Shown: positions 11,164 to 63,690 of the stretch, one piece after another | Position numbering within the stretch: position 1 is the first letter of the stretch | Layout of the letters: each line of letters opens with the position of its first letter | NCBI GenBank assembly: GCA_964017235.1 | Contig: OZ024930.1 | Coordinates: 157,852,221 to 157,916,220, forward strand | Length of the DNA stretch: 64,000 bases | Direction of reading: 5' to 3' | From: Sabellastarte sp. h YS-2021 | Taxonomy: Eukaryota; Annelida; Polychaeta; Sabellida; Sabellidae | Made by a program: the position numbers and the translations under genes | Notes under the pieces: model-generated | Seen by the model: the letters and a program-made list of their open reading frames with translations, nothing else | What the model was told of the DNA's origin: nothing | Databases searched by the model: none

Positions 11164-11224
11164 TGGCACAAGAGATCACCCACTGCCGTGACTTGAAATG
11201 CCAGGAGGACACAGAGTGCATAGG
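11164..11224 (+). CDS. EGF-like module, first exon (cadherin/DUF11-like gene)
   Basis: First well-supported exon of the gene. The acceptor CTTTCTGTTTCAG and donor GTGAGC flank it. Reading in phase 2 gives AQEITHCRDLKCQEDTECIG, with three cysteines. The last two bases join the next exon to complete a glycine codon, and the joined peptide has the cysteine spacing of a compact EGF-like module. Such modules are extracellular and disulphide-bonded. The upstream exon, and so the residue at the left junction, is not identified. The assignment to EGF rests on cysteine pattern and context. Confidence 0.75.
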
Positions 11225-11635
11225 GTGAGCGGCTTTATAAAAAATTCATGTTGTAATTACTAGGTAGTTTTGTTATTTAGACACAAAGGTGTACATAATG
11301 TTTACTTTAATGCTTGTCTTCCTGTGAATTTGATTGGTAAATCATATTTTTACTGAAATTTAGAGAAAGATCATAATTTGTAGCATCATAAGTCTCTACG
11401 ACATTAATTTTGGTGGTCGTTGGGACTTGAATCTGAGATGATGGATAACACCATATTTAACCAGAAGTATAGACAGTTGTGATTGAAAAATAAATGTTAA
11501 ACATTACTTTGTTGTACTTTTATTATTTTGTTTTATTACCAATATCCCACTGTGCCTGAAATCAGCTTATATCAGGACCTCTCAAACTCCAGGCCTGTGC
11601 TTATTCTTTAATCCTGTATTATTACACATCTCTAG

Positions 11636-11721
11636 GATCCCCTGTGTACATGGAAAATGTGATGAGTCTGGACAATGTTTGTGTGAGGGATGTTGGGTTG
11701 GGGTCAGCTGCGATACACCAG
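11636..11721 (+). CDS. EGF-like module, second exon
   Basis: The acceptor is CATCTCTAG and the donor GTAAAA. It continues the frame from 11224 and encodes IPCVHGKCDESGQCLCEG, then CWVGVSCDTPG. This has the CxxGxC...CxC...C arrangement and terminal G-V-S-C of an EGF-like repeat (C-V-H-G-K-C, C-L-C, then W-V-G-V-S-C). It ends with one base of a glycine codon that is completed by GT at 14067. The open frame across both junctions supports the splice model. The module sits immediately N-terminal to the cadherin domain. Confidence 0.8.
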
Positions 11722-12384
11722 GTAAAAAAAGATTTAAATATTTTTTTTTATGAAAATAAAGCATATACGTTTATCAAATTAAAATGGTTTAATCACATTT
11801 AAATAAAATATCTCAATATATATACAGCTTGTTTTTTGTTACAAGTAGCCAAGGCTGGCGCAGGGGAATTAAATCCCATGACAATCTCAAATTGGTTAAT
11901 TTAAAAGAAAGAAACTTGTTATTCAAAATTTAGTCTTTCCTTTTTGACAAATTTCAGATGTTGTGGCACAGTCAACATTTTTTTAATTAATATGTTTAAT
12001 CAAATCGTAACTAATCTACTGAAGAAGCTATCTATTGAAGCCACAGTCAACCTTCCCCACAATTTGGAACTCAGCACACTATAAGTGATAAAGTAGAGAT
12101 TTTATTATTCTACCTAATTTTATTTTTTTATTTTTCAATATTCAGTTGTATGAAACCATGTCTACTCTCCCAAATTTGTAGCAATTTATTGTTTATACTA
12201 ACATGTCTCTTCTGTTTTATGAACCTTTTATTATCCATCGGAAAATCTCACTTTTTCAACCTGTTCAGATAATAGAGGTTCTGTTCTGTCTGACATTTTC
12301 ACTAGAAATCTTCAGGTGTCAAATCTGTACTGCTTCAAGCCATACATTCTCACACCTTGGTTACAAAATTCTTATTGGTGTCTG
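11722..12384. other. intron, nothing recognised
   Basis: AT-rich start of the 2.3-kb intron between the EGF and cadherin exons. Nothing beyond low-complexity T-rich tracts. Confidence 0.6.
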
Positions 12385-12700
12385 TTTTATGATAACTAGA
12401 AAGCACTGGTAGATTGCAGACCTCCGCCAGGGGAGTTTTCAGAATTTCAGGAATTTTTGTTTCCAAAATGCAATCGGTTCTTCATTTGGTCAGGCCCTAT
12501 CCGCATAAAAAAATTGTATTATAATCTGGTTATTACTTTTGGAGTAATGTCACCCAGAAAGCCAGTGTCATTGAAAAAACCTTGGAAATGGGACATTTGG
12601 AAATTTCTTGTAGATTTTTGTATCCAAAATATGATCTGTATCCCTCCCAAAATTTGATCACTTCTTCCTTTAAAAAAATTCAGAAAAAGATCTAAAAAGA
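12385..12700 (-). repeat. dispersed repeat family C, inverted copy
   Basis: The left end ATGATAACTAGAAAGC...CCTCCGCCAGGG is the reverse complement of the right end of the copy ending at 56190. The interior carries the family's GATCTG/CAAAATATGATC sub-repeats. An open frame on the minus strand through this area (12519-13001) has no protein-like features. Confidence 0.5.
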
Positions 12701-13130
12701 TTTTGGGATTATTGCCAACATAAACCAACATACAGATAAATGCAGCTAAAACATAAGCTCCTGGTGGATGTAAAATCATAATGGTGGGCAAATATGTTAA
12801 TAAGGAATAAATGAAAAAAAAATTAAAATGCAACAGCAGCAGTTTGTAGATAGATTCCAATTGAATATTTTGAAATAATGTCATTACACAAAATAGGTTG
12901 AGATTTTCTTTTATGGTGGATAAAAATGTTTGCCACTGACACACAAGACAATGCACTGGCAAGACATAATCTGTTTGGATTTGTGCATCAGTTGTACACA
13001 CAGAATCTATAACTTTATTTAACTTTTGGATTTATGTGTCAGTCATACACATAATCAGTGGGGATAGATAATAAGCTTTGATATACAAGACAATACACTT
13101 TATTTTATAATACCCGGTAATTATGTCTAA

Positions 13131-14066: not shown

Positions 14067-14328
14067 GTAACCCCCACACCCCTTATTTTGTGAACACATT
14101 TTACGATGTCTCCGTGAAAGCTGACCATCCATTCCAAACCCCACTGTTGACTGTAGAGGCTATAGATGAAGATAAGAAGACATGCTTACAGGAAGAAGAC
14201 TGTGAATGTGCAAAGATTAAATACACCATCCTTGAAGGCAATGAACTGGGTCAGTTTTCCATAGATACACACACTGGTGAAATCTTTGCTGATGCTCTGG
14301 TGGACTTAGCAAATGGGGTTTCAAAAAG
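14067..14328 (+). CDS. cadherin domain, first exon
   Basis: The acceptor is ATTCACATCAG and the donor GTATGA. It encodes the N-terminal three quarters of a cadherin (CA) repeat: HTPYF near the start (the PxF of strand A), LLTVEAIDEDKK (the A-x-D-x-D calcium-binding motif), IKYTILEGNELGQFSIDTHT followed by GEIFADAL (the I-x-Y...G-x-F-x-I-D-x-x-T-G-x-I signature). Cadherin domains are calcium-stiffened extracellular adhesion modules. The usual LDRE-type motif after GEI is replaced by VDLANGV, so one calcium site may be altered. An extra Cys pair (TCLQEEDCEC) is unusual for a CA repeat. The exon ends in phase 2. Confidence 0.9.
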
Positions 14329-15165: not shown

Positions 15166-17365
15166 CATTATGTCCACCCCACTGGGGGGTGGACATATTA
15201 TTTTTGCTTTTTCCGGCGTCCGGTGTCCGGCGTCCGGCGTCCCACATGGTTTCCAGACATTTTAGACAACAGTTCTTATCCTATCTTTACCAAATTTGGC
15301 ATGCAGGTTTATTGGGGTTAATAGCTTGTATGGGATTGCTCTTGGTGATGATAGCTCTATAGCTAACTGAGTAATAGCTACTTTGCTACTTTTGAGTGTC
15401 TCTTTGGTTTTCAGGCATTTTAAGGAATGCTATTAAGCCTAGCTTTCTGAAATTTGGTATGGAGGTTCATTGGGTTAATAGGTTGTATGGGATTGCTTTT
15501 GGGGGGAATTGCTTCATAGATGAGTGAGTAATTAATTAAATAAATGAGTAATTGGCTATTTTGAATACTGAAAAAGGCAAATGTGCTCATATCTCCTAAA
15601 CCGTGCGAGATAGAGTGATTTCGTCGAAATTTTCGACCCACAGGGTATCTAAGGAATGTACTCTTTGCAATTTTCAAAAAATTTTCCTCTCCCCAAAAAT
15701 GGCGGCCATTTTGAATTTTCGAATTTTTGCCAAAAATGGCAAAACACAAATTTGCTTCTATCTCCTTAACCGTGCGAGATAGAGCGATTTCGTCGAAATT
15801 TTCGACCCACAGGGTATCTAAGGAATGTAATCTTTCCAATTTTCAAAAAAATTTCCCCTCCCCAAAAATGGCGGCCATTTTGAATTTTCGAACTTTTGCC
15901 AAAAATGGCAAAACACAAATTTGCTTCTATCTCCTTAACCGTGCGAGATAGAGCGATTTCGTCGAAATTTTCTACCCACAGGGTATCTAAGGAATATACT
16001 CTTTGCAATTTTTCAAAAAATTTTCCCCTCCCCAAAAATGGCGGCCATTTTGAATTTTCGAAATTTTGCTAAAAATGGCAAAACACAAATTTGCTTCTAT
16101 CTCCTTAACTGTGCGAGATAGAGCGAAATTTTCGACCCATAGGTTATGTGAGGAATGTAATCTTTGCAATTTTCAAAAAATTTTCCCCTCCCCAAAAATG
16201 GCGGCCATTTTGAATTTTCGAATTTTTGCCAAAAATGGCAAAACACATATTTGCTTCTATCTCCTTAACCGTGCCAGATAGAACGATTTCGTCGAAATTT
16301 TCGACCCACAGGGTATCTAAGTAATGTACTCTTTGCAATTTTCAAAAATATTTTCCCCATCCCAAAATTGGCGGCCATTTTGAATTTTCGAATTTTTGCC
16401 AAAAATGGCAAAACACAAAATTGATTCTATCTCCTTAACCGTGCGAGATAGAGTGATTTCGTCGAAATTTTCGACCCACAGGGTATCTCAGAAATGCACT
16501 CTTAGCAATTTTCAAAAAAATTTCCCCTCCCCAAAAATGGCGACCATTTTGAATTTTCGAATTAATGCCAAAAATGGCAAGACACAAATTTGCTTCTATC
16601 TCCTTAACCGTGCGAGACAGAGCGATTTCGTCGAAATTATCAAGCAACAGGGTATCTGACCAATGTACTCTTGGCAATTTTCAAAAAATTTTCCCCTCCC
16701 CAAAAATGGCGGTCATTTTGAATTTTTCCCCAAAATGGCAAAACACAAAATTGCTTCTATCTCCTTAACCGTGCGAGATAAAGCGATTTCGTCGAAATTT
16801 TCGACCCACGGGGTATCTAAGAAATGTACTCTTGGCAATTTTCAAAAAATTTTCCCCTCCCCACATATGGCAGCCATTTTGAATTTTCGAATTTTTGCCC
16901 AAAATGGAAAAACACAAATTGGCCTTAACTGTGCAAAATGGAGTTATTTCGTTAAAATTTTCGACCCATAGGGTATCTAAGAAATGTACTCTTGGCAATT
17001 TTCAAAAAATTTTCCTTTTCCCAAAAATGGCGGCCATTTTGAATTTTCAAATTTTTGCCAAAAATAGAAAAACAGAAATTTGCTTCTATCTTCTTAACCA
17101 TGCAAGATAGAGTGATTTCGTCAAAATTTTCAACCCAACCAATGCAAAAAGGCATGAAGCTGAAATAATTTACATGTACACTAATAAATATTTAAGCATC
17201 ATTGATATATTTTACAAATGAAACAGGGTCTTGTAACACTACTGTACAATTTTGCCAAAAGGTTCATGGGGTGGACATTACACATGATAATGTGTGGTCT
17301 TCTATGCTATCCTCTTTCTATTCATATGTCGCAGCTACTATCAACAGGGCGTCCTATTTCTAGTT
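15166..17365 (-). mobile_element. Helentron/HINE (pearl)-like element B, copy 1
   Basis: The left end is a perfect 11-bp hairpin at 15170-15196 (arms ATGTCCACCCC/GGGGTGGACAT, loop ACTGG). The arm GGGGTGGACAT recurs at 17268-17278 near the other end. Right next to the hairpin is a GGCGTCC heptamer repeat (15212-15242). The interior has two copies of a 158-bp unit and then about nine copies of the 169-bp satellite. The right border (TATTTCTAGTT) is defined by loss of identity with the copy at 58.8-61.9 kb. With the hairpin taken as the 3' end, the element lies on the minus strand. No transposition gene is present. Confidence 0.6.
15590..17135. repeat. 169-bp satellite array (orientation 2)
   Basis: Nine or so monomers containing ATCTCCTTAACCGTGCGAGA, GATTTCGTCGAAATTTTCGA, CCACAGGGTATCT, TTTTCCCCTCCCCAAAAATG and GCGGCCATTTTGAATTTTCG. 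Monomers differ by a few per cent and small indels. Because 169 is not a multiple of three, repeated peptide-like frames appear on both strands; they are not genes. Confidence 0.9.
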
Positions 17366-19283: not shown

Positions 19284-19491
19284 GTTGAAACTGACAGTAG
19301 GGGCTAAAAATGAGGGATTCAAGAAGTTTGGCCTCACCGGTACTAAAGCCACTGTCGTTATCAACATAGGTGGGGGACCAGAGATAGAGTCAAATGGCTT
19401 GAAAGCCAGTTACTTGGAGGATAGTTTAAGTGAAAGCTTCTCAGACATTGACATGAATGGAGATATGGACAGAGCATCTAGAACGAAAAGG
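19284..19491 (+). CDS. cadherin domain end and furin-type site exon
   Basis: The acceptor TATTCTATTCCAG supplies the base completing the Arg codon from 14328, giving SKRLKLTVGAKNEG, then GLTGTKATVVINI: strands F and G of the same cadherin domain (L-x-V-x-A-x-N and A-x-V-x-I-x-I). No DxNDN linker follows, so this is the last cadherin repeat. An acidic, Ser-rich linker (LEDSLSESFSDIDMNGDMD) follows, and the exon ends exactly with RASRTKR before donor GTAATT. RTKR fits the furin consensus R-x-K/R-R. Phase 0 at the right end matches the next confirmed exon at 28242. Confidence 0.85.
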
Positions 19492-19589: not shown

Positions 19590-21380
19590 TTTTTTTACCT
19601 CACAGCCCTTAAGGGCTGTCATGATATTGTTTTCACCCATGGTGTCAGGATGGGCGGGTGGGTGGTCTTCAGGAAAAAGTTTGTCTGGGCTGTGTCTCAG
19701 AAATCGTAAGGTTTAGGAAGTTGATACTTGGTAGGGACATTGGTTAGGTGGTGTAAGTATGCAATGTCATGGTGTGACCTTTCAATGTCATGGTGTAACC
19801 TTGATTTCACCTTTGATCTGGCCATAGTGACTTTGAGTTTGAAAATCTTGTCCGGGCTATATCTCAGAACCTGTAAGGTGTAGGAAGTTGATACTTGGTA
19901 GGGACATTGGTTGAGTGTTTTGGCTGTGCAACATCATGATCTGACCTTGATTTGACCTTTTACCTTGCTGTAGTGACATTGACCTATAAAATCTTGTCTG
20001 GGCTATATCTCGGAAACCGTAAGGTGTAGAAGCTTGATACTTGGTAGGGACATTGGTTAGGGGATGTAGGTGTGCAGCGTCATAGTGTGACCTCGATTTG
20101 ACCTTTGACCTTGCCATAGTGACCTTGACCTATAAAATCTTGTCCATGCTAATTTTTGGAAACTGTAAGGTGTAGGAAGTTTACACTTGGTAGGGACATT
20201 TGTTGGGGGTGAAGGTGTGCAACGCCATGGTGTTACCTTGATTTGACCTTTAACCTTGTTGTAGTGACCTTGACTTATAAAATCTTGTCCTGGCTATATC
20301 TCGGAAACTGTAAGATGTAGGATGTTGATACTTGGTAGGGACATTGGTTAGGGGGTGTAGGTGTGCAGCGTCATGGTGTGACCTTGATTTGAACTTTGAC
20401 CTTGCCATAATGACCTTGACCTATAAAATCTTGTCCGGGCTATATCTCAGATACGGTATGGTGTAGGAAGTTAATACTTGGTAGGGACATTGGTTAGGGG
20501 GTGTAGGTGTGCAACGCCATGGTGTTACCTTGATTTGACCTTGCTGTAGTGACCTTGAGTTTGAAAATCATGTCCAGGCTTTATCTTGGAAACTGTAAGG
20601 TGTAGGAAGTTGATACTTGGTACGGACATTGGTGGGGGTTGTAGGTGTGGAATGTCATGATGTGACCTTAATTTGACTTTTGATCTTACTGTAGTGACCT
20701 TAATCTTTAAAATTTTGTCTGGGCAAAATCTCTGAAACCATTAAGTGTTAGAGGTTGATGCTTGGTAGGAACATTACTTAGAGGTTGTAGGTGTGACACA
20801 TCATGCTGCAATCTTGATTTGAGCTTTGACCTTGTCATTGTGACTTTGAGTTTTAAAATCTTGTCCAGGCTATTTCTTGGATTCCGTAAGATGTAGAACA
20901 TTGACACTTGGTAGAGACATTGGTTAAGGGGTGTAGGTATGCATCATGGTGTGACCTTTAACTTTGGCTCTGCCAAAGTATGTTCACCTGCCATATTTGT
21001 GACATGTTTCTCTTATGAAAAAGACATATGGATAGCTGTAACTGATTATTATATGAACTTAATTTTTCATAATTGTGCTTTTTCCATTGACAGCTGTTCC
21101 TGAGTTAATAAAATTTTACAGCTTCATAATTTTTAGTGTAGTGATTAACGCTATCATCTTGCTGTTGAATTGTCTTGTTTTAATACTTTATCTTTACATA
21201 CATTTTCTTTCTCTTAGAAGTTGTTTTATCTACTTAAACATTATTTGGAGCTTTATATAAGTGACACTGAGCTGAAAGTATCCCAGTCTTTGTACTGTTT
21301 CGCTACTTCTATATATCATGGTGTTGAAAACTATTTCCCCAGGCTGTGGGGTACTTGCATCTCTGATGCTATTTTTAGAG
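19590..21380 (-). mobile_element. Helentron/HINE-like element D, copy 1
   Basis: The left end holds the perfect palindrome ACAGCCCTTAAGGGCTGT (19602-19619) preceded by TTACCTC. The right end holds GGCTGTGGGGTA (21342-21353), the inverse of TACCCCACAGCC seen at the left of other copies. The interior has about eight monomers of roughly 150 bp (19.67-20.96 kb), then a unique 400-bp tail ending GCATCTCTGATGCTATTTTTA. Related copies lie at 28.7, 29.4, 48.2 and 56.8 kb. No coding capacity. Confidence 0.6.
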
Positions 21381-22700: not shown

Positions 22701-23890
22701 ATGACAGGAACACATCAAGAGCAACTGCTTGATCACTTGAGGGTCCTTTTGTTTTTTATTGAGTTGAATATGTTCTTGTATATCATGATTTCAAGACACA
22801 GAAGACAGCAGAACCCAGCACCTGCCCAGCCAGCATCACCACCACCCAGAAGGAGAAGGAAGCCAAAGAATCCATGGGTCATGCCCTGGATACTATAGAG
22901 GGAAGAGAGAGGTTGCTACAGAACACTCTTGGACAAACTAATCACAACTGACATATCAGGCTACAGAAATGTCACCAGGATGGAACCAGCATTTTTTGAT
23001 TTGATTGTGATTAGTTACCCCCCATCTCAGGAAGTCAAGCACCAACTTCAGGAAGCCACTGGAAGTCCGGTTGAAACTGGCAGTTACACTTATCTACAGG
23101 GGAAAGCTAAACTTCACTGCAATACCACTGGAGGGTTGGAAGAATGACCATCTGCAAATTTGTCCCCCAGGTCTGCAAAGCCATTTTGAAAGAATTTCAA
23201 CATGAGTGCTTGATGTGTCCAACTGATCCTGAAGACTGGAAGAAAATTGAAGAAAGATTTAGAAACAGATGGAATGTTCCCCATGCAGTCGGTGTACTAG
23301 ATGGTAAACACACTGCTATGAAGAAGCCCAAGAAGTCTGGCAGTGAATATTTCAACCACAAGGGCTACTTCTGCCTGGTACTTTTGGCTTTAGTCGATGC
23401 AGATTACAAATTCCTGTGGGTCAATATGGGGGCCAGTGGGTCATCATCTGATGCACAGATTTTCAACCGCAGCAAACTGCAAAGAAGAATTGAAAACGGA
23501 AGGTTGGGACTACCACCACCTGAACCACTTGGACCTGGGGGGGGGGGGGGGGGGGCAAATCTACCCTACTTCCTGCTGGGGGATGATGCTTTTGCCCTTA
23601 GGCCTTGGCTGGTCAAGCCATACAGTAGACGACAACTGACCAGAGAAGAGAGAATAGCCAACTACAGAATACAGGAGGGTGGTTGAGAACTCATTTGGTA
23701 TACTTGTCAAGAGATTCAGGGTGCTGTTGACCACCATGGAGCAGAGGCAAAAAGCTGTGAGAGACATTGTGTTAACATTGTGTTAACATGTGTGATACTA
23801 CATAGCCTGCTGAGAAGCCGTCAGGGGGAAGCAGACAGACCACCCACTCCAGCCGACGACATACAACCACCACAGGCAGACCAGGTGAAA
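22701..23890 (+). pseudogene. Harbinger DDE transposase (frameshifted)
   Basis: The N-terminal part (22701-22898) is a basic, proline-rich leader ending in NPWVMPW, typical of Harbinger transposases. Then come YRNVTRMEPAFFDLI, a frame change near 23040 into TNFRKPLEVRLKLAVTL, a second change near 23140, and the catalytic core 23144-23686. Visible there are the first Asp in GVLDGKH, NHKGYF, LVDADYKFLWVN, GSSSDAQIFN, and the second Asp in LLGDDAFAL. A third shift near 23675 precedes the catalytic Glu in [12 protein letters not shown] 19-base G run (23537-23555) replaces the normal loop before the second Asp, and an 11-bp duplication interrupts the C-terminus. Several frameshifts make it non-functional as read. 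Confidence 0.9.
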
Positions 23891-28241: not shown

Positions 28242-28391
28242 GACATATCTGCAGCTAGTCTGGGTGTCAGCAATGTCACCTTTCACTTATCCAAGACTGG
28301 GAACTACTCAGATGTGACAACTCTACGAGTCGGCAGTAAAGTGCACTTTCAGCTTGCTATACAGTTTCCTCAGGATACCACTGATATACTG
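28242..28391 (+). CDS. DUF11-like repeat 1, exon 1
   Basis: The acceptor is AACTTTGACAG and the donor GTAAGA; phase 0 at both ends. It encodes 50 residues starting DISAASLGVSNVTFHLSK, with YSDVTTLRVGSKVHFQLAIQ: the V-G-x-x-V-x-F-x-L pattern that opens each of the four repeats in this gene and resembles the VGDxVxYxI strand of bacterial DUF11/isopeptide-type repeats. Two N-glycosylation sequons (NVT, NYS). It follows the RTKR exon directly in frame. The donor region is tandemly duplicated downstream. Confidence 0.85.
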
Positions 28392-29359: not shown

Positions 29360-30662
29360 AGTTTTTACCCCACAGCCCTTAAGGGCTGTTTGGGTGTTGT
29401 TTTCACCCATGGTGTCCGGATGGGTAGGCGGGCGGGAGGGTGGCGAGAAAAAGTTTGTCCAGGCTGTATCTCAGAAACTGTAAGGTGTAGGAAGTTGATA
29501 CTTGGTAGGGACATTGGTTAGGAGGTGTAGGTGTGCAACGTCATGGTGTGACCTTGATTTGACCTTTGACCTTGCTGTGATGACCTTGACCTATAAAATC
29601 TTGTCCGGGCTATATCTCAGAAACTGTAAGGTGTAGGAAGTTGATACTTGGTAGGGACATTGGCTAGGGGGTGTAGGTGTGCAATGTTATGGTGTGACCT
29701 TGATTTGACCTTTGACCTTTCCGTAGTGACCTTGACCTATAAAATTTTGTCTGGGCAATATCTCGGAAACTGTAAGGTGTAGAAAGTTGATACTTGGTAG
29801 GGACATTGGTTAGGAGGAGTAGGTGTGCAATATTATGGTCTGACCAGGATTTGACCTTTGACCTTGCCATAGTGACCTTGACCTATAAAATCTTGTCCGG
29901 GCTATATCTCAGAAACCGTGAGGTGCAGGAAGTTGATACTTACTATGGACATTGGTTAGGGGGTGTAGGTGTGCAACGTCATGGTCTGACCTTGGTTTTA
30001 CCTTTGACCTTGCTGTAGTGACCTTGACCTATAAAATCTTGTCCGGGCTATATCTCGGAAACCGTAAGGTGTAGGAAGTTGATGCTTGGTAGGGACATTG
30101 GTTAGGGGTTGTAGGTGTGGAGCATCATAGTGTTACCTTGATTTGACCTTTGACCTTGTAGTGACCTCGACCTTTAAAATCTTGTTGCGCCTTTGGATCT
30201 GTCTTTTGATGCAGATTAAGCACTGTTAACTCATATTAGAAATCTTGTTGCACCTTTGGGTCTGTCTTTTGATACAGATTAAGCACTGTTAGAGTCATAT
30301 TAGAATTCATTAAGAATTTTACTTCACAACTTCCCATTGTAACAGATGGTATTTCATCAAGTGAGCCACAGATTTTGCTCCAACACCACACTCAAGCATT
30401 CATTGAATGTATTATCACTTCTGTATGCATGGTAATATTCAAAACATCTAAACCATAATTCGGCCATGCCAGATGTAGATAAAGTACATGCATTATCTTT
30501 CTCTTAGACATTATTTTCTCTATTTAAACATTGTTTGGGCCTTTATTTTACTGACAGTGCTCTGAAACTATCCTGAACTTTGTACTGATACAGTACTTCT
30601 ATATCTCATGGTGTTAAAAATATTTCCCTAGGCTGTGGGGTACGGGCATCTCTGATGCTATT
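29360..30662 (-). mobile_element. Helentron/HINE-like element D, copy 3
   Basis: Left TACCCC then the perfect palindrome ACAGCCCTTAAGGGCTGT (29372-29389); right GGCTGTGGGGTA (30631-30642). About five monomers (29.44-30.18 kb) each carry CTATATCTCAGAAACCGTAA, GTTGATACTTGGTAGGGACA and a TGACCTTTGACCTTG block. Exact DR1-type TGACCTTTGACCT occurs at 29560, 29706, 29852 and 30144. The tail is shorter than in copy 1. Confidence 0.65.
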
Positions 30663-31065: not shown

Positions 31066-31221
31066 GTGGAGCTGTTTACTCCAGACAATGAGACGACTAT
31101 TATGGCTCTTTGTAATGTGGAAATTATTAGTATTGGAAGCGCAATTAAAATCAATGAGGAGTCAGTGGCACCTGCAGATGTCAAGGCTGTGATGGAGGCC
31201 AAAACTGAGGACAGTTATGAT
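31066..31221 (+). CDS. DUF11-like repeat 1, exon 2
   Basis: The acceptor is TTTTATCTAG and the donor GTGAGT; phase 0 at both ends. It encodes VELFTPDNETTIMALCNVEI and a further 32 residues ending EDSYD. It contains the repeat's second signature: hydrophobic-E-hydrophobic-(A/T)-P followed about 15 residues later by the conserved L-C-N-V-E-I cysteine motif, aligning with SICNAMI, KLCDVRI and RICRAEV in repeats 2-4. The second cysteine present in the other repeats is missing here. One sequon (NET). Confidence 0.85.
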
Positions 31222-33032: not shown

Positions 33033-33251
33033 TATGACAGAGCAATCTATGCCATCGGTAATGTAACCAATGATGGCACTGCATTGGCAGCTGTGGATGA
33101 GATGATTGTCATTGAGTGGGATGTGGTGATGATTGACAGTAACAGTGTAGAAAACGGAAGTTCATACTGGGTCAGCGCAGGTGCAGAATATGATAATGAG
33201 CAAAATGTGTGGGTGGGACAGGCGTCGTTTATGACAATCGTCGAAACTTTT
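33033..33251 (+). CDS. DUF11-like repeat 1, exon 3
   Basis: The acceptor is TTTCCTCTGTAG and the donor GTAAGT; phase 0 at both ends, 73 residues. It encodes AIYAIGNVTNDG and DEMIVIEWDVVMID, the 'G-x-V-x-N-x-G ... D-x-I-x-hydrophobic' strand pair typical of DUF11-like repeats. Then YWVSAGAEYDNEQNVWVGQA is shared almost residue for residue with the exon at 63590 (SWVSAGVSYTKESIYIGQMA). Sequons: NVT, NGS. In repeats 3 and 4 the same stretch is split over two exons, so intron positions have changed since duplication. Confidence 0.9.
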
Positions 33252-35535: not shown

Positions 35536-35836
35536 GATGTTGATGATAATCCAATCTTCAACTATACTGGACCTGAGGAGGTTGCCATGGGATCAACTTC
35601 TGTTTTCCAAGTTGACATGTATATCCCGTATCCCGCTATTGACCTAACATTTGATATCTTTGCACCAATTAATGACACAGGGGTGATGTCCATATGTAAT
35701 GCTATGATTGTGGAAACTGGGGAGCATTACTCATGTATCCCTAAAGACAAGATTGAAACAACACTATACAAGGCTTCAGACAATGAAAACAGAAACAGCC
35801 GGGCAAGGGTGAACATTGGATATGTCGTTAATGCAG
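35536..35836 (+). CDS. DUF11-like repeat 2, exon 1
   Basis: The acceptor is TTATTTTCACAG and the donor GTTTGT; starts phase 0 and ends phase 1. It encodes about 100 residues: DNPIFNYTGPEEVAMGSTSV with FQVDMYIP (strand pattern M-G-S-T-x-V-F-x-V), then LTFDIFAPINDTG, SICNAMIVETGEHYSCI (both conserved cysteines), and RARVNIGYVVNAG. This single exon covers what takes two exons in repeat 1. Sequons: NYT, NDT. The donor is weak (GTTTGT), but the phase fits the next exon exactly. Confidence 0.9.
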
Positions 35837-37288: not shown

Positions 37289-37312
37289 GAAATTTTTATT
37301 GTGTTAATACAT

Positions 37313-41133: not shown

Positions 41134-41149
41134 TCCCTTCCAGAAGGCA

Positions 41150-42705: not shown

Positions 42706-42795
42706 TAGCAAATGTCCATTGGATAGGATGTATTAACGCAATAAAATTAAATAATTAAATTGAATTTTGATAAGTTAATACCCTATCCAAGGGAC
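42706..42795 (+). repeat. DIRS internal complementary region
   Basis: Bases 42706-42748 (AATGTCCATTGGATAGGATG...TTAACGCAATAAAA) are the inverse of the outer edge of the left terminal repeat (37289-37332). Bases 42770-42790 (GATAAGTTAATACCCTATCC) are the inverse of the outer edge beyond the right repeat (43017-43050). This two-part complementarity is the hallmark used in DIRS circle formation. Confidence 0.85.
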
Positions 42796-42865
42796 AGGCA
42801 AGGTCCTCCCAACCGGCCCTGCTATCAGCTTACTAGGGGTCGTAATAGGACTAGACAACAAAAAA

Positions 42866-43032
42866 GATGCTATGACATCATGATGTCTAGACAGGAAAAA
42901 GTATGATGCACCACCTGGTGAATGCACACTCTGTGACCGGTCCTGCCGGTAGTATATACAGGACATCTTTTTTTGGCGTTTGGCGGGACCGGTCACATCG
43001 TCCAGTGAAGCAATTGTCCATTGGATAGCTTA
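42866..43032 (-). repeat. DIRS right inverted terminal repeat
   Basis: Inverse copy of 37313-37476; contains CTGTGACCGGTCCTGCCGGT. It shows a GACATCATGATGTC palindrome near its inner end (42873-42888) that is altered in the left copy. Confidence 0.88.
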
Positions 43033-43287
43033 TTAACTTATAAAAATTTAACTCACTTATTAAATTTTCAAGTTTATCTCTTTTTATATGTTTATCTCTT
43101 CCGCAGAAACTAACCATTAGTGTAAAATCACTTCCAGTGGATTTCTTAAAATTGGAAAATTAATACAATTTTCTTTTAGCTAAAATCTGCACATTTGTGA
43201 ATGGTAATTCAAAATTAGAGAGGTCTCTTGTGGGTATATTGAATGCATTTTGTAAAGATTTATTCACAAATACCTATATTTCATTAG

Positions 43288-43484
43288 GAATTCATGAGGC
43301 CCCTTTCAACAGCAGCAAGGAACTGAACAAAATTTCTGTGGCATTTGCTGTTCAAATCTTCAACTCGACAGAATACATCAACAACATGTATTGGTTAGGT
43401 GTTGCTGTAGAAATTGGCCCTGACCTTATTTGGGCTGCCCAGCTCGGAGTAACAGTTGTGGAGAGTGATACTCTTCTGGGAATG
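43288..43484 (+). CDS. DUF11-like repeat 2, exon 2
   Basis: The acceptor is TATTTCATTAG and the donor GTGAGT. Two bases complete a Gly codon with 35836, then IHEAPFNSSKELNKISVAFA, VQIFNSTEYINNMYWLGVAV and WAAQLGVTVVE. It matches the C-terminal half of repeat 1 (D-x-I-x-hydrophobic strand, then W/L-x-V-x-V and W-x-A/G-Q) with lower identity. Two sequons (NSS, NST). It ends in phase 0. Its separation from 35836 by 7.4 kb is due mainly to the DIRS insertion. Confidence 0.85.
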
Positions 43485-44784: not shown

Positions 44785-45000
44785 CTGACAGATCCTTCTC
44801 TGAAGCTCACCTCCAAAACAGAAGCAGATGTGATGGTTGGCCAGACAGTTTTATATGAGTTGAATATGACATTACCACAAAACAGTGAGGGCATGTTTGA
44901 GCTGGAAGTTCTGGCTCCATATAATGACAGTGCACGCATGAAACTTTGTGATGTCAGGATAGCTGCACAAGGTCTGAACGTACCCTGCTTTGAAGAAACA
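44785..45000 (+). CDS. DUF11-like repeat 3, exon 1
   Basis: The acceptor is CTTTTTACAAAG and the donor GTAAGT; phase 0 at both ends, 72 residues. DPSLKLTSKTEADVMVGQTV followed by LYELNMTLP is the clearest match in the window to the bacterial DUF11 opening (L-x-L-x-K-x...V-G-x-x-V-x-Y-x-L-x-x-T-L-P). Then FELEVLAPYNDSARMKLCDV and RIAAQGLNVPCF carry both cysteines. Sequons: NMT, NDS. Confidence 0.9.
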
Positions 45001-47489: not shown

Positions 47490-47654
47490 TTTCCAGTGTA
47501 TTCTTCACGAGATAGTTCTAACATCTCAGACCGGATTGTCTGGCCCCTGGGAAGAATCCGGAATACAGGACAGAGAGAAGTGTCCCTGGATCCATATGCA
47601 GATGTGATCACTTTTATAATTGCAGCCCAGGTTTTAAACCACAGTCTGAATGAA
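47490..47654 (+). CDS. DUF11-like repeat 3, exon 2
   Basis: The acceptor is ATATATTACAG and the donor GTGAGT; phase 0 at both ends, 55 residues. FPVYSSRDSSNISDRIVWPL is followed by GRIRNTGQREVSLDPYADVI and TFIIAAQVLNHSLNE. The order 'L-G-x-I-x-N-T-G ... D-x-I-T-F-x-hydrophobic-x-A-x-V-L-N' closely resembles the DUF11/isopeptide repeat's LGxVTNT...DxITxxxxAxVxD block. Sequons: NIS, NHS. Confidence 0.88.
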
Positions 47655-48205: not shown

Positions 48206-49985
48206 TAGTAACACTGGGCAGGCGGGTGGCGGGAAAAAGTTTGTCTGGGCTGTATCTGAGAAATCGTAAGGTGTAGAAAGTTTATACTTTGGACATTGGC
48301 TAGGGTGTGTAGGTATACAACGTCCTGGTGTAACCTTGATTTGACCTTTGACCTTGCCGCAGTAACCTTGAGTTTGAAAACCTTATCCGGAAGTTATCTT
48401 GACAACTGTAAGGTGTAGGAAATTGTTACTTGGTAGGGACATTAGTTAGGGGATGTAGGTGTGCAACGTCATAGTGTGACCTTGATTTGACCTTTGACCT
48501 TGCCATAGTGACCTTGACCTATAAAATCTTGTGCGGGCTATATCTCAGAACCGTAAGGTATAGGATGTTGATACCTGGTAGCGACATTGGTTACGGGATG
48601 TAGGTGTGCAACATCGTGGTTTGACCTTAATTTGACCTTTGACCTTGCCATAGTAACCTTGATCTGTATAATCTTGTCCGGGCTATATCTCAGAAACCGT
48701 AAGGTGTAGGAAGTTGATACTTGTAGGGTCATTAATTAGGGGGTGTAGGTGTGCAGCGTCATGGTGTGACCTAGATTTGACCTTTGACCTTGCTGTAGTG
48801 ACCTTGACCTGTAAAATCTTGTGGGAGCTATATCTCAGAAACCGTAATGTGTAGGAAGTTGAAACCTCGTAGGACCATTGGTTAGAGGATGTAGGTGTGC
48901 AACATCATGATGTGACCTTGATTTGACCTTTGATCTTGCCGTACTGACCTATAAAATTTTGTCCGGGCTATATCTCAGAAACCGTAAGGTGTAGGAAGTT
49001 GATACCTGATAGGGACATTGGTTAGGTGGTGTAGATGTGCAGCGTCATAGTGTGACCTTCATTTGACCTTTGACCTTGTGGGAATGACCTTGACCTTTAA
49101 ATTCTTGTGCGGGCTATATCTCAAAAACCATAAGGTGTAGGAAGTTGATACCTGGTAGGGACATTGGTTAAGAGGTGTAGGTGTGCAATGTCAAGGTGTG
49201 ATCTTGATTTGGTCTTTGAGCTTGCGGTAATGACCCCTTGACCTATAAAATCTTGTACTGGCTATATCTCAGAAACCATAAGGTGTAGGAAGTTTATACC
49301 TGTTGGGGACATTGGTTTGGGGGCTAGGTGTGCACTATCATGGTGTGACCTTGATTTGACCTTGCCTTAGTGACCTTGACCTATAAAATCTTGTGCGGGC
49401 TATATTTCAGAAACCTAAGGTGTAGGAAGTTGATACCTGGTAGGGACATTTGTTGGGGGGATGTAGGTGTGCAATGTTATGGTGTGACCTTTAACTTTAT
49501 CTCTGCTAAAGTGTGTTCACCTGCCATATTTGAGATATCTTTCTCTTATGACAAAGATATATAGATTGCTGCAACTGATTATTATATGCACGTTACATAA
49601 TTGTGCTTTTTCCATTGACAGCTATTCTCTAATCAATAAATTTTACAGCTTCATAATTTTTAGTTTACTGATTAATGCTGTCATCTTACTATTGAATTTT
49701 CTTGTTTTAATACTTTATCTTTACATACCTTTTTTAATTTCTCTTAGATGTTATTTTCACTACTTAAACATTATATTATATCTCATGGTGTTGAAAACTA
49801 TTTCCCCTTAAACATTATATCTCATGGTGTTGAAAACTATTTCCCCAGGCTGTGGTTAGGTTTAGGATGTTGATACTTAGTAGCAATATTGATTTAGAGG
49901 TGTAGATATGCAACATCATGGTGTAACCTTGATTTGACCTTTGACCTTGCTGTAGTGGCCATAACCTTTAATATCTTTACAGGGC
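48206..49985 (-). mobile_element. Helentron/HINE-like element D, copy 4 (left-truncated)
   Basis: The hairpin end is missing; the match begins at GGGCAGGCGGGTGGCGGGAA. About eight monomers (48.23-49.48 kb) are followed by the family tail. The right end GGCTGTGG (49850) runs into a further partial monomer (to about 49985), and a short CTTAAACATTATATCTCATG duplication lies at 49.77-49.83 kb. This suggests recombination between copies. Confidence 0.6.
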
Positions 49986-50267: not shown

Positions 50268-50363
50268 GTTGGAAAACTGGTTTCCATGACTGCAGGAATG
50301 CAAATAGATAGTAACAAACTTTGGGTTGGAACGACAAGCAAAGTTATTGCTGCAGTCAATGAG
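50268..50363 (+). CDS. DUF11-like repeat 3, exon 3
   Basis: The acceptor is TTGTAATTCAG and the donor GTAAGT; phase 0 at both ends, 32 residues: VGKLVSMTAGMQIDSNKLWV then GTTSKVIAAVNE. It matches the SAGxxY...xxWVGQxxF end of repeats 1 and 4, with GTT in place of GQ. It closes repeat 3, and the next repeat begins in phase 0 at 54528. Confidence 0.85.
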
Positions 50364-54527: not shown

Positions 54528-54787
54528 ACTGTGACTGCGCCCACTTTTAACATGGAATATGGTTTTGGTACTGACCAGGTGGAGACCGGAGGTGCTGCTG
54601 TAGTAGAATTTGAAATCATCACAAAACCTGAATCTCTGTATGACCCAATGTCTGTAGAGTTTATCATGCCATATGAAAACAATTCTGCAGTGATGAGAAT
54701 TTGCAGGGCTGAAGTCATCTCCAAGGGTTTGAACCTGCCATGTTTTGACCGAGTGGCCATCAATAGCTCCATCACATATTCATCAAA
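54528..54787 (+). CDS. DUF11-like repeat 4, exon 1
   Basis: The acceptor is CCTTTATTTCAG and the donor GTTAGT; starts phase 0, ends phase 2. TVTAPTFNMEYGFGTDQVET, then GGAAVVEFEI, MSVEFIMPYENNSAVMRICR and AEVISKGLNLPCFDRVAI. The last two blocks align closely with repeat 3 (VLAPYNDSARMKLCDVRIAA, QGLNVPCF), including both cysteines. It continues past the cysteine into NSSITYSS, as in repeat 2. Sequons: NNS, NSS. Confidence 0.9.
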
Positions 54788-55820: not shown

Positions 55821-55828
55821 TACCTCCA

Positions 55829-56655: not shown

Positions 56656-57690
56656 AACTTATGAGTCTGCGCAACCTACAGGCTGTATAGGTATTGTTTT
56701 CAGTCATGGCCCCCAGCTGGGCTGGCGGGCAGTAAGAAAAATCTTGTTTTTAGTACCAACTTAAACCTTAATATGGATTGTCATAAAACAGAAGGATACA
56801 AGTCTGTTTTTTACCCCACAGCCCTTATGACTGTCGGGGTATTGTTTTCACCCATGGTGTCCGGATGGGCGGGCGGGCAGGTGGCAGGAAGAAGTTTGTA
56901 AGGAAGGAAGGATACTTGGTAGAGACATTGGTTAGGAGATGTAGGTGTGCAACGTCATGGTCTGACCTTGATTTGACCTTTAACCTCACAGTAGTGACCT
57001 TGACCTATAAAATCTTGTCCAGGCTATATCTTGGAAACAGTAAGGTGTAGCAAGTTGATACTTGGTAGGGACATTGGTTAGGTGGTGTAGATGTGCATTG
57101 TCATGGTGGGACCTTGATTTGACCTTTGACCTTGTCATAGTGACCTTGACCTTTAAAATCTTGTCTGGACAATTTCTTGGATTCCATAAGGTGTAGAAAG
57201 TTGACTTGGTAGGGATATTGGTTAGGGGGTGTGTTTAAATGTATGTGTGCATCATGGTGTGACCTTTTTGCTCTCCCAAAGTGTGTTCAGCTGCCATATT
57301 TGAGACATCTTTCTCGTATGACAAATATATATTGATTGCTGCAACTGATTATTATATGCACTTTTACATAATTATGCTATTTCCATTGACAGCTATTCTC
57401 CAATTAATAAATTTTACAGCTTTATATTTTTTATTTTATTTTTTTTTAGTTTATTTATTAATGCTGTCACCTTGCTATTAAATTGTCTTGTTTTAATACT
57501 TTATCTTTACATACATTTTCTTTCTCTTAGATGTTATTTTCTCTACTTAAACATCATTTGGACCTTTATATAAGTGACACTGTGCTGAAAGTATTCCGGT
57601 CTTTGTACTGCTTCACTACTTCTATATGTCATGCTGTTGAAAACTATTTCCCCAGGCTGTGTGGTATGGGCATCTCTGATGCTATTTTTA
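56656..57690 (-). mobile_element. Helentron/HINE-like element D, copy 5 (short array)
   Basis: A remnant end at 56671 (CAACCTACAGGCTGTATAGG) is followed by a second, better end at 56812 (TACCCCACAGCCCTTATGAC, a damaged hairpin). It has about two to three monomers (56.91-57.26 kb), the full family tail, and right arm GGCTGTGTGGTA at 57655. The double left end looks like one copy inserted into or recombined with another. Confidence 0.6.
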
Positions 57691-57840: not shown

Positions 57841-57986
57841 GAATAACGATGACATCCATGACATGGCTGTGGTATCTCTGGGAACAGTTTGTAACACTAA
57901 AGCATCAGATGACAATGATACAACTGAAGACAAGATCGTACTGAGTGTGGTAACGCAGTTACAGGACCATGTAAACTTAGAAAATG
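57841..57986 (+). CDS. DUF11-like repeat 4, exon 2
   Basis: The acceptor is TTGTATTTTTAAG and the donor GTAAAA. It completes the Lys codon from 54787 and ends in phase 1, matching the exon at 63590. It encodes NNDDIHDMAVVSLGTVCNTK and TTEDKIVLSVVTQLQDHVNL. The blocks align with repeat 1 (RAIYAIGNVTNDG ... DEMIVIEWDVVMID). It has an extra cysteine (VCNTK) not found in the other repeats. Sequon: NDT. Confidence 0.87.
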
Positions 57987-59159: not shown

Positions 59160-61670
59160 CTCATATCTCCTAAACCGTACGAGATAGAGCGATTTTGTCG
59201 AAATTTTCGACCCACAGGGTATCTAAGGATTGTACTCTTTGCAATTTTCCAAAATTTTCCCCTCCCCAAAAATGGCGGCCATTTTGAATTTTTCGAATTT
59301 TTGCCAAAAATGGCAAAACACAAATTTCCTTCTATCTCCTTAACCGTGCGAGATAGAGCGATTTCGTCGAAATTTTCGACCCACAGGGTATCTGAGCATT
59401 GTACTCTTGGCAATTTAAAAAAAAAATTTCCCCTCCCCTAAAATGGCAGCCATTTTGAATTTTTGCCAAAAATGGCCCCAATTCAACATAGCATCCTGTT
59501 TAAGTATAATCTTTTGGTATTCAAGGCTATTTCACAGACCCCGTATCTCTCAGCTTTAATAAGATCGAGCAGTCTCACTCGCGGCAACAGGCTATCTATC
59601 TCCTCAACCCACCCTAAGAAGCACATAGGTAGGCGTGGCTTTGCAGTAGCTGCACCAGCTGAATGGAACAAGCTGCCACAGACTGTCAGATCTCAGCAAA
59701 CAATAGATGGTTTCAGAAGCCAGCTAAAGACCTACTTGTTTAGGCTGGCATACCCCACACCTTAGTCATACCCTGGCGGGCGCTTTTTAAATGTCGACCG
59801 ATGCCTGTCCCTGGACTCTCCCTTCTTGGTCTCAAGCGCATTAGAGGATTTGTATCAATTTTGCGCTATATAAATCCTACTATTATTATTAAAATTTTGA
59901 ATTTTCGAATTTTTGCCCAAAATGGCAAAACACAAATGTGCTTCTATCTCCTTAACCGTGCGAGATAGAGCGATTTCGTCAAAATTTTCAATCCACAGGG
60001 TATCTAAGGAATGTAATCTTTGCAATTTTCAAAAAATTTTCCCCTCCCCAAAAATGGCGGTTATTTTGAATTTTCGAATTTTTGCCAAAAATGGCAAAAC
60101 ACAAATTTGCTTCTATCTCCTTAACCATGCGAGATAGAGCGATTTTGTCGAAATTTTCGACCCACAGGGTATCTAAGGAATGTAATCTTTGCAATTTTCA
60201 AAAAATTTTCCCCTCCCCAAAAATGGCGGTTATTTTGAATTTTCGAATTTTTGCCAAAAATGGCAAAACACAAATTTGCTTCTATCTCCTTAACCATGCG
60301 AGATAGAGCGATTTTGTCGAAATTTTCGACCCACAGGGTATCTAAGGAATGTAATCTTTGCAATTTTCAAAAAATTTTCCCCTCCCCAAAAATGGCGGCC
60401 ATTTTGAATTTTCAAATTTTTGCCAAAAAAACACAGATTTCCTTCTATCTCCTTAACCGTGCGAGATAGAGCGATTTCGTCGAAATTTTCGACCCACAGG
60501 GTATCTGACCAATGTACTCTTGGCAATTTAAAAAAAATTTTCCCCTCCCCTAAAATGACAGCCATTTTGAATTTTCGAATTTTTGCCCAAAATGGCAAAA
60601 CACGAGTTTGCTTCTATCTCCTTAACCGTGCGAGATAGAGCGATTTCGTCGAAATTTTCAACCCACAGGGTATCTAAGGAATGTAATCTTTTCAATTTTC
60701 AAACAATTTTCCCCTCCCCAAAAATGGCGGCCATTTTGAATTTTCGAATTTTTGCCAAAAATGGCAAAACACAAATTTCCTTCTATCTCCTTAACCGTGC
60801 AAGATAGAGCGATTTCGTCAAAAATTTTCAACCCACAGGGTATATAAGGAATGTACTCTTTACAATTTTCAAAAAATTTTCCCCTCCCCAAAAATGGCGG
60901 CCATTTTGATTTTTCGAATTTTTGCCAAAAATGGCAAAACACAAAATTGCTTCTATCTCCTTAACCGTGCGAGATAGAGCGATTTCGTCGAAAGTTTCAA
61001 CCCACAGGGTATCTAAGGAATGTACTCTTTGCAATTTTCAAAAATTTTCCCCTCCCCAAAAATGGCGGCCATTTTGATTTTTCGAATTTTTGCCAAAAAT
61101 GGCAAAACACAAAATTGCTTCTATCTCCTTAACCGTGCGAGATAGAGCAATTTCGTCGAAATTTTCAACCCACAGGGTATCTAAGGAATGTAATCTTTGC
61201 AATTTTCAAACAATTTTCCCCTCCCCAAAAATGGCGGCCATTTTGATTTTTCGAATTTTTGCCAAAAATGGCAAAACACAAAATTGCTTCTATCTCCTTA
61301 ACCGTGCGAGATAGAGCAATTTCGTCGAAATTTTCGACCCAGAGGGTATCTAAGAAATGTACTCTTTGCAATTTTCAAAAAATTTTCCCCTCCCCACATA
61401 TGGCGGCCATTTTGAATTTTAAAATTTTTGCCCAAAATGGAAAAACACAAATTGACCTTAACCGTGCAAAATGGAGTTATTTCGTTGAAATTTTCGACCC
61501 ATAGGGTATCTAAGAAATGTACTCTTGGAATTTTCAAAAAATTTTCCTTTTCCCAAAAATGGCGGCCATTTTGAATTTTCAAATTTTTGCCAAAAATAGA
61601 AAAACAGGAATTTGCTTCTATCTTCTTAACCGTGCAAGATAGAGTGATTTCGTCAAAATTTTCGACCCAA
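59160..61670. repeat. 169-bp satellite array (orientation 2), copy 2
   Basis: Monomers are as in 15.59-17.14 kb. The units starting near 59913, 60082 and 60251 are spaced exactly 169 bp; the second and third share the variants GGCGGTTATTTTGAA and AACCATGCGAGAT. Units at 60.9-61.3 kb share a GGCCATTTTGATTTTTCG variant. This points to recent local duplication of blocks of monomers. Confidence 0.9.
59475..59890 (+). mobile_element. non-LTR retrotransposon 3' end
   Basis: It encodes the C-terminus of a LINE reverse-transcriptase protein: RGFAVAAPAEWNKLPQTVRS then GFRSQLKTYLFRLAYPTP, the conserved 'AAPxxWNxLPxxIRS...FKxxLKTYLF' tail of several LINE clades. The stop at 59763 is followed by a 3' UTR ending GCGCTATATAAATCC and (ATT)n. 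It is 5'-truncated, as usual for LINE insertions, and placed inside a satellite monomer. Confidence 0.85.
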
Positions 61671-62035
61671 CCAATGCAAAAAGGCATGAAGCTGAAATAA
61701 TTTACATCTACACTAATAAATATTTAAGCATCATTGATATATTTTACAAATGAAACAGGGTCTTGTAAGACTACTGTACAATTTTGGCAAAAGGTTCATG
61801 GGGTGGACATTACACATGATAATGTGTGTTCTTCTTTGCTATCCTGTTTCTATTCGCACCTACTATCAACAGGGCGTCCTATTTCTAGTTATAACACACA
61901 GTAATGCCATTCAAAGCTTAATAAAACCATGAAGTATTGATATCAAATACCTTATCAATAAGCGCCTTTGTTCATCCATCTTTTAAACCCTAATTTAAGG
62001 TTAAATGAAATTGAATTACCAAACATGCTTTAAAA

Positions 62036-62424
62036 TAGGGCTGCGAACGGGTACTCGAGCCTCGATAGATGAGACAATCTTTGCTAGTACTCGAGTCCAT
62101 TTTAAATACTCAGTTACTCGCGAGGTATTGTATTATTGCCCACATAATCAAACGCTTGTGTAAAATATGCTACATTTCTGCATTTCTGTCACATAATATC
62201 AATTAACTTGTTATTTTTGCTTGAAAACATATAATTTACTCCATATTCCATAATATCTGGTCAAATAGAAGACGTTTTTCTTCAAAAGTTTCCTTTCCGG
62301 AACCGACTATTTGTTTACAGAAGACTTCTTATGGTAGGTACTAAATCTTGCGGTCACTCAAATTCGGGCCGGTTGTCAGAGGGCGAGTACTTGGTGCTGT
62401 TTTTTAGCACCCATCCCAGCCCTA
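62036..62424. mobile_element. hAT-like MITE with intact 8-bp target duplication
   Basis: It begins TAGGGCTGCGAACGGGT and ends ACCCATCCCAGCCCTA, a typical hAT terminal repeat. The 8-bp duplication CTTTAAAA lies on both sides (62028-62035 and 62425-62432). The 389-bp interior contains repeated TACTCGAG and GGGCGAGTAC motifs and no transposase. Confidence 0.85.
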
Positions 62425-62432
62425 CTTTAAAA

Positions 62433-63589
62433 TCACTGTTATTACTGATCACAGGGTTGAGAATGTGAAATCCACCAATAGGAAAGAATGGGCTGTGAAT
62501 TCTTTTGAAAGGTTCAGATTTAACCCTTTAACAAGGTCAAATGCCTTGTTTCTCATTTGTGATTAATATCCAAAAAAACTCGTAATATAAAACAACTTAT
62601 AGAAAATGCTTATAGGCTGTGAACCTTTGTCAGTGTCAGACTTGACCTGTCATGTCTTCTTCCAGGTAATATAAAGTTCTTGAATCTCATTTGAGGGAAT
62701 TATATGTGCACTGCATGAAATTTGTGCAGTTCAGAATTTGTTATTCATCCAGACATTATGTCTACCTTTCAAAGCCTAAACATTGTCAAGTTCAAAATTT
62801 CTTATCCTACTTAGAAATTTTGTGAATTTTTTCAATTATTTTGGGGGGATTTTGTTAGAATATTCTAATTAGAAAAATGTTAATGACTATACATCCTGGC
62901 CTCACGTAAAGAAAACCTACATTACAGGACCATATACATAAATACGGCGGGTGATGATGTGACGTTCAACCCTAGTCACACAGTGTTGGCAATTATTGTT
63001 ATATTCTTACTCAACAGCAAATTTTAGGTGTAGAAATCCTTTTAAAATTTCATAAAAATATTATCACAAAAACAAGGCTGGCGGAAATTAATTTACAGAA
63101 TATCAGTGAAAAAACATTACACAAAGTGAAGGTGATCATGTTGATCTCAACCTCAATGTTCATCTGAATCCAGAAGGACTACATAACTTGGGCTTCATTT
63201 AGACAAGATTAAATTATAACAATTGTGTTTGTAAATTTCTTGAATATACCATAGCTTTCAAACAGCAGCCATTCCTAAAAAACAAGGAAATTCTGTATGA
63301 CCCACTTAAATGTAATTACAGTCTTACAAGGGATCCTTAAGCAATACTGAGCTTATTAATATCTTCAATAAAGCTTATATTTTTGAGAGTGTGTTGTGCT
63401 AAATTTGATGTACATGTAAATACTTTATATAGTTGTGTTTGTCAATATTAACTGTGTTTTATCTGTTTTATACTGTCCACAAGTGATAATACTGAGGAGA
63501 TGTCCCAATACAACCCCGACTGTTGAACTTTAACACAATACTGTTAAAACTAAGTAAATAAATGTTCAAATGTGATTTTTACTCCTCAG
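62433..63589. other. intron, nothing recognised
   Basis: AT-rich end of the 5.6-kb intron in repeat 4. It includes the relic of the duplicated junction near 62925-63000 (TTACAGGACCAT ... CCTAGTCACACAGTGTTGGC). Confidence 0.55.
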
Positions 63590-63690
63590 GTGACAAGTCC
63601 TGGGTTAGTGCTGGGGTGTCTTACACAAAGGAAAGCATTTACATAGGACAAATGGCAATGTTTACAGTGAAGGATATGAAAGCCAGCTAT
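63590..63690 (+). CDS. DUF11-like repeat 4, exon 3
   Basis: The acceptor is TTTTTACTCCTCAG and the donor GTAAGT. Two bases complete the Gly codon from 57986, then DKSWVSAGVSYTKESIYIGQ and MAMFTVKDMKASY. It is nearly collinear with repeat 1 (SYWVSAGAEYDNEQNVWVGQ, ASFMTI), which confirms the tandem-repeat model. It ends in phase 0, so further exons, probably another repeat, should follow beyond the window. Confidence 0.9.

Follow-up and report, generated by a model that had tools for sequence, protein, structure and literature searches.

Tandem units in a cadherin-containing annelid gene that appear distantly related to bacterial isopeptide-forming stalk domains

We analyzed a window of 64,000 nucleotides (C4:157852221-157916220) from the 1.79 Gb genome of the polychaete Sabellastarte sp. 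h YS-2021, on a contig of 182 Mb. It carries a chain of exons coding for an EGF-like segment, a cadherin domain and a row of repeat units. Profile searches support the proposal that these units are distant relatives of bacterial isopeptide-forming stalk domains (TIGR04226 and DUF11, or CLIPPER). For the locus as a whole we consider it probable that the exons belong to one secreted, glycosylated, modular animal protein in which the CLIPPER-related units would serve as a spacer, with a cadherin/EGF end on one side and a discoidin end on the other; its gene would cover at least 99 kb, with the window holding its middle.

Profile relation of the units to bacterial repeats

The bacterial sequences came from 80 DUF11 loci and 30 TIGR04226 loci (33 of 40 searched genomes had a TIGR04226 match), and these 110 loci gave 870 open reading frames (ORFs) of at least 100 residues. 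Since several loci carry identical sequence (L100 and L138, L098 and L113, L076 and L117, part of L037 and L130), the number of loci does not give the number of genomes. A profile hidden Markov model (HMM) was built from seven units, leaving out an eighth that was too divergent and an 11-residue stretch of unit 4. It ranked long isopeptide-type repeats at the top of the 870 ORFs, led by a Verrucomicrobiales genome (E 1.3e-5) and followed by a planctomycete (4.2e-4), a member of the Chitinophagales (5.5e-4) and Kuenenia (6.1e-4). No column-shuffled profile among 40 did better than E 0.012, and the reversed profile and a cadherin profile got no further than 1.6 and 0.12, respectively; when each unit was left out in turn, the best E value ranged from 2.8e-6 to 1.2e-4. 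Four bacterial repeats among those used are called TIGR04226 by NCBIfam, at 33.1 to 45.2 bits against a cut-off of 30.

An hhalign comparison of the units with 14 bacterial repeats (24 were found and 10 removed by hand) gave a probability of 91.5% and an E value of 8.5e-7 over 128 collinear columns, and none of 60 shuffles was as good. In the reciprocal direction, the bacterial HMM placed the spliced gene at the top of 11,642 sequences (the gene plus 11,641 regional ORFs; E 1.1e-4), aligning unit 3 to model positions 10-136 of 148. The unspliced ORFs that came next were unit exons, namely exon 10 at E 0.062, exon 11 at 0.29, exon 7 at 1.1 and a further one at 2.7; the fifth (5.6) was not a unit exon and the sixth (7.3) was. 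The cadherin profile showed no comparable relation to the bacterial repeats. The similarity to TIGR04226-type repeats runs over the full length of the profile and is carried by units 1-4. A link to DUF11 and isopeptide-type repeats had been inferred in a preliminary description of this DNA, and the searches in both directions, with their shuffle controls, speak for it within the limits that follow.

Several results weigh against the relation. The 870 ORFs are enriched in DUF11-type sequences by design, and the stronger E values come from bacterial sets chosen by eye (a further set of eight rows was grown from two seeds picked in the same way). Against 300 generic DUF11 sequences, two hhalign runs gave E 0.013 and 0.019, and against 300 mixed isopeptide sequences 0.0097 and 0.008, all at probabilities of 2-5%; in one of the two runs shuffles were added, and none of 100 was as good for either set. 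TIGR04226 loci selected by length only gave E 1.2e-3 (at least 360 bases, 7 of the 30 loci) and 0.011 (at least 300 bases, 18 of the 30), with none of 60 shuffles as good in either case. Units 5-7 alone matched the bacterial set at E 0.23, equalled by 3 of 60 shuffles, and of the single units only unit 3 was clear (4.1e-5), with unit 1 at 0.011 and the others at 0.09 or above. Shuffles test composition, and cadherin was the only other beta-sandwich profile tried. Four of the 14 bacterial repeats, when left out, scored against the rest at E 1.3e-16 to 2.7e-36, so the animal units must be regarded as remote.

The curated libraries weigh on the same side. No unit exceeded any Pfam cut-off; the DUF11 model PF01345 (gathering threshold 24.6) does not report the units, and the TIGR04226 model (cut-off 30 bits) matched none of the seven at E up to 10. 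The units alone matched no PDB chain, and a search of 194 genomes from one phylum with the unit profile, run without a positive control, gave no match at E 0.01. For unit 2 (35536-43484), Pfam gives DUF4049 below threshold (E 0.0028, 17.2 bits against a cut-off of 25). Elsewhere, NCBIfam gave the units only chance-level matches (best E 0.029), and unit 7 had a sub-threshold Pfam match to DUF5683 (E 0.056). Nothing useful came from searching IMG/VR and plasmids with unit 4, or with a bacterial repeat and a consensus. Across the whole animal genome PF01345 matched once, on contig C8; this match was set aside because it lies below the cut-off (20.8 bits), contains an internal stop and has no unit motif in the surrounding stretch.

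Crosslink residues, fold and ancestry of the units

TIGR04226 (RrgB_K2N_iso_D2, isopeptide-forming domain-containing fimbrial protein) occurs as long repeats in large bacterial surface proteins. The animal units resemble it in their length of about 150 residues, motif order and tandem arrangement, sharing V-G-x-x-V-x-F/Y, a Pro after the second strand, L/I-G-x-V/I-x-N, a D-x-I-x-I strand and a Gly before the last strands. They differ in their dense N-glycosylation sequons, their introns, the silence of the curated model and the residues of the crosslink, in place of which they have a Cys pair. In the DUF11 crystal structure 9IFR the crosslinking triad consists of Lys715, Asp748 and Asn806, according to the available part of a 2025 survey of the AlphaFold database (PMC12617251). 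In a joint alignment of the seven units with nine bacterial repeats, hand-chosen from the 24, the bacterial Lys column holds Lys in 6/9 bacterial sequences and in none of the units (N, N, D, A, E, V, N, listed from unit 1 to unit 7); the Asp column is kept in 9/9 and 0/7 (L, I, V, F, V, F, V), and the Asn column likewise in 9/9 and 0/7 (V, L, M, V, G, F, V). Other columns recur in both groups: a Gly (9/9 bacterial sequences, 7/7 units), a Pro (8/9, 7/7), a second Gly (8/9, 6/7) and the Asn of G-x-I-x-N (7/9, 6/7). Judging from 9IFR and the alignment, the three lost columns would correspond to the crosslink triad, with the Lys column falling in the least certain region. Read in this way, the isopeptide residues are missing from all seven units, which are non-crosslinking animal relatives as far as the alignment can tell.

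Units 2 to 6 (5/7) each have a Cys pair with a spacing of 13 residues, which probably stabilizes them as a disulfide. Two Cys residues also lie near the place of this pair in a bacterial repeat at residue 496 of L112 (forward frame), from an Anaerolineae genome. From the motif pattern the units may be predicted to fold as a beta sandwich. An AlphaFold prediction for the bacterial sequence L100 plus two rows was poor (pLDDT 51.6, pTM 0.54) and speaks neither for nor against our interpretation; the L100 model consists of strands besides two short helices. A profile of five units and seven bacterial repeats found 9IFR at E 0.006, behind 8WXD (0.0035) and 9UVR (0.0039), and the bacterial rows may carry this match, as bacteria alone reach 9IFR at 0.033. 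Relative to DUF11/CLIPPER, the units differ in that the Pfam model is silent on them and the 9IFR triad has no counterpart.

It is conceivable, if rather unlikely in our judgment, that the units represent a beta sandwich of Ig/E-set type that arose within animals, akin for example to integrin-alpha or other E-set domains, and that the likeness reflects convergence or deep fold ancestry rather than descent from a bacterial stalk domain. Single-unit similarity is weak, DUF11 itself is placed within the large E-set clan by the survey, as available in part (PMC12617251), and animal E-set families were compared through Pfam only. The units are 18-27% identical to a reference unit (unit 3 in one comparison, unit 1 in the other), which implies an old family. 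However, the match extends over 128 collinear columns and survives shuffling, the bacterial positions outside the crosslink recur, the cadherin profile shows no such relation, and Pfam reports an animal E-set family for no unit at E up to 10, with filters that drop most weak matches.

The lengths first given for units 1 to 4 (175, 166, 159 and 169 residues) were reproduced, the last with the exon 14 acceptor at 57841, which leaves out 11 residues that the other units lack; the alternative acceptor at 57808 would give 180. The 16 N-glycosylation sequons originally counted fall within units 1-4, and units 1-7 together hold 31 against a shuffled mean of 13.6 (maximum 25 in 2000 shuffles). In all, the array comprises seven and perhaps eight units of about 165 residues. 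A phase-0 intron precedes every unit from 1 to 7, a phase-1 intron falls at a common alignment column in units 2, 5 and 7, and units 4 and 6 share a phase-2 position. From the phase-0 unit starts and the shared introns it follows that the units were probably multiplied within an intron-bearing genome, long ago.

These features bear on an explanation by bacterial contamination or by a recent transfer of bacterial DNA. The relatives detected come from bacteria, and the survey, in its available part, places isopeptide-type domains in bacteria and archaea and treats eukaryotic hits as likely false positives, perhaps from contamination (PMC12617251). Yet introns interrupt the units, some at the same column and phase, the contig measures 182 Mb, sequons are dense and the units share only 18-27% identity with the reference. 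We rejected contamination on the introns and the chromosome-sized contig, and hold either form of this explanation to be extremely improbable.

Exon chain and extent of the gene

Exons were re-derived by scanning for ORFs and scoring splice sites with a generic matrix. All 15 exons that had been described as joining in frame were located on the forward strand (11164 to 63690); they have AG/GT borders, the frame stays open, and phase is kept at 14/14 junctions. The random-phase chance for this is (1/3)^14 = 2e-7, a figure that overstates the surprise because a phase-fitting splice site was picked wherever several were possible. Two groups of junctions are supported by homology, since a Pfam cadherin match bridges exons 3 and 4 (fragment residues 61-163) and a single alignment to a purely bacterial HMM spans exons 10, 11 and 12.

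Exon 1 (11164..11224; acceptor 7.6, donor 4.2 bits) codes for the Cys-rich start of the mature protein (AQEITHC...) and exon 2 (11636..11721) for the EGF-like Cys pattern. The cadherin domain begins in exon 3 (14067..14328) and ends in exon 4 (19284..19491), which continues, as seen in the splice and ORF scan, into an acidic linker ending in RTKR. The remaining exons were assigned by the unit profile. Unit 1 is encoded by exons 5 (28242..28391), 6 (31066..31221) and 7 (33033..33251), the last with the WVSAG...WVGQ end; unit 2 by exons 8 (35536..35836) and 9 (43288..43484); unit 3 by exons 10 (44785..45000), 11 (47490..47654) and 12 (50268..50363); and unit 4 by exons 13 (54528..54787), 14 (57841..57986) and 15 (63590..63690). 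Acceptors 43288 (3.1) and 50268 (4.2) were preferred to the higher-scoring 43180 (4.2) and 50217 (6.5) because they fit the other units. Single exon borders may be off, as splice scores are modest for some exons (0.6 for the donor of exon 13, for instance).

Flanks of 40 kb upstream and 160 kb downstream were also read (264 kb in all). By clear homology, the gene as read from these sequences extends past the downstream end of the window: profiles of unit halves detect more unit copies on the same strand to about 80 kb in window coordinates. These are unit 5 (exons 64119-64425 and 65053-65249), unit 6 (65786-65869, 72648-72835, 75587-75692 and 76392-76553), unit 7 (77583-77762, 79187-79319 and 80050-80293) and a divergent, possible unit 8 (81388-81565 and 82753-82975), all continuing the chain. 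Profiles of units 1-4 find exons of unit 6 at E 4.3e-14 and 6.2e-5, of unit 7 at 0.0013 and 0.38 and of unit 5 at 0.023; we count units 5-7 as members because of this likeness and the shared introns. Still on the same strand follow the exons of an F5/8 type C (discoidin) domain (85161-85280, 86291-86475 and 87916-88086) and a propeller-blade-like end containing an SSDSGETW stretch (88834-89142 and 89910-89994). The first account of an EGF-like segment, a cadherin domain and four units holds for the window, but the array is longer and a discoidin domain follows it.

The gene probably extends upstream of the window as well. A likely signal-peptide exon on the forward strand at -9710..-9659, about 21 kb upstream of exon 1, codes for MSRACVLFILSGFVVIS and joins exon 1 in phase. 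The join gives a good signal peptide, MSRACVLFILSGFVVISVA followed by QE, with likely cleavage between ISVA and QE, and the five most hydrophobic 19-residue segments of the joined model all lie within it. Candidate exons resembling a signal peptide numbered two in the 51 kb upstream, and three forward plus one reverse in the 264 kb. Further exon candidates from the upstream 40 kb were set aside, many being transposon-like by eye. The joined model has 32 exons and 1,849 residues, in phase throughout and without a stop. Two points tell against it: about 0.2-0.6 signal-peptide-like exons would be expected upstream by chance, and neither a stop codon nor a 3' end was found for the 32-exon model in the 160 kb read downstream. 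A whole-genome search with 1,397 residues returned 32 matches, of which 24 lie at this locus, seven on contig C1 correspond to the cadherin part, and a single one, at E 0.159, falls on the opposite strand of C4 some 61 kb upstream of the window. With the remainder confined to the cadherin part or to E 0.159, the genome holds one copy of the gene at this sensitivity.

The exons might instead come from two or more neighboring genes, one with the cadherin/EGF part and one with the repeats, wrongly joined by a chance fit of phase. The introns, long as they are (8.7 kb from the cadherin part to unit 1), contain transposon and satellite sequence, and the chain is known here from genomic sequence alone. 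All exons nevertheless lie on one strand, in phase and with no stop, and we regard this explanation as quite improbable.

The introns and flanking stretches hold further features. Four tandem arrays of period 146 have a similar consensus (19783-20958, 29455-30185, 48247-49491 and 56911-57232), and arrays of period 169 occupy 7505-8449, 15578-17137 and 59894-61669. The intron before unit 1 contains a transposase fragment at 23111-23683 (forward strand; DDE_Tnp_4, 67.4 bits, cut-off 24.8), which we take to be of PIF/Harbinger type. In the intron of unit 2, at 38453-42356 (forward strand), there are several long ORFs, one with a sub-threshold match to the tyrosine recombinase family PF00589 (18.7 bits, cut-off 27.1); we assume that these may be the remnant of a DIRS-like retroelement.

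Flanking domains, proposed role and origin

A single cadherin domain exceeds the Pfam cut-off (PF00028, E 4.7e-8, 33.8 bits, cut-off 28.8), as had been proposed. The EGF-like assignment made beside it falls below threshold, the best match being EGF_DL_JAG at 13.9 bits (cut-off 27) in exon 2, with Cys spacing that looks EGF-like by eye. No second EC repeat was found among the pieces scanned with Pfam, and the ends of the gene may be missing from these. While the PF00028 domain is a likeness to the cadherin superfamily, the gene differs in having only one such domain, in that the motifs DRE and DxNDNxP were not seen by eye, and in that no membrane span was seen in its assembled part. Many cadherin-domain matches in long open frames, arranged like a protocadherin cluster, occur elsewhere in the same genome (loci L001-L008 on contigs C1, C4, C5 and C271); 150 of 489 candidates were scored, mostly on C1. 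Just before unit 1, where the cadherin part gives way to the repeat row, stands RTKR (19480-19491), a possible furin-type cleavage motif. A furin-type protease could separate the two parts there. At the other end, beyond the window, the F5/8 type C domain clears its cut-off (PF00754, 50.2 bits, cut-off 28.2). The SSDSGETW end had no Pfam match and a weak PDB match to Ika8 (E 3.6e-4), which we take to be a designed propeller.

The protein would thus run from a signal peptide through an EGF-like, Cys-rich segment, the cadherin domain and the RTKR linker into seven, perhaps eight, units, and then into the discoidin domain and the propeller-blade-like end. DUF11/CLIPPER domains serve as a stalk in bacterial fibrillar adhesins, according to the available part of the survey, which gave them their name (PMC12617251). 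By analogy, the row of units would most likely form a stiff spacer that keeps the cadherin/EGF end apart from the discoidin end, between cells or in the extracellular matrix, consistent with a role in adhesion. With the crosslink triad gone, the Cys pair of units 2 to 6 may act as a stabilizing disulfide instead.

Domains of this type have been known chiefly in microbes, which makes one in an animal unexpected, and no animal DUF11 or isopeptide-domain family was found in the literature, as represented mainly by openly licensed publications available in part. Cohesin is a bacterial domain that occurs in TMEM132, a membrane-bound protein. TMEM132 is an animal adhesion-type protein of cohesin and Ig domains, as described in the available part of PMC6030884; compared by description, it resembles the proposed protein as an animal adhesion-type protein with a domain of bacterial type, and differs in its domains and in being membrane-bound. 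We tentatively suggest, with less confidence than for the domain organization, that an animal lineage long ago acquired the stalk domain of a bacterial fibrillar adhesin, that its isopeptide crosslink was replaced by hydrophobic packing and a disulfide, and that modules starting after phase-0 introns were duplicated into a cadherin-discoidin stalk. The result would be the first metazoan CLIPPER/isopeptide family.

The units constitute a domain family without a Pfam model and open to definition. They raise the question of whether the animal branch lost the crosslink after a transfer or never had it. If the relation is true, an animal array cut by introns and lacking the crosslink would reveal how much of the fold eukaryotes retained.

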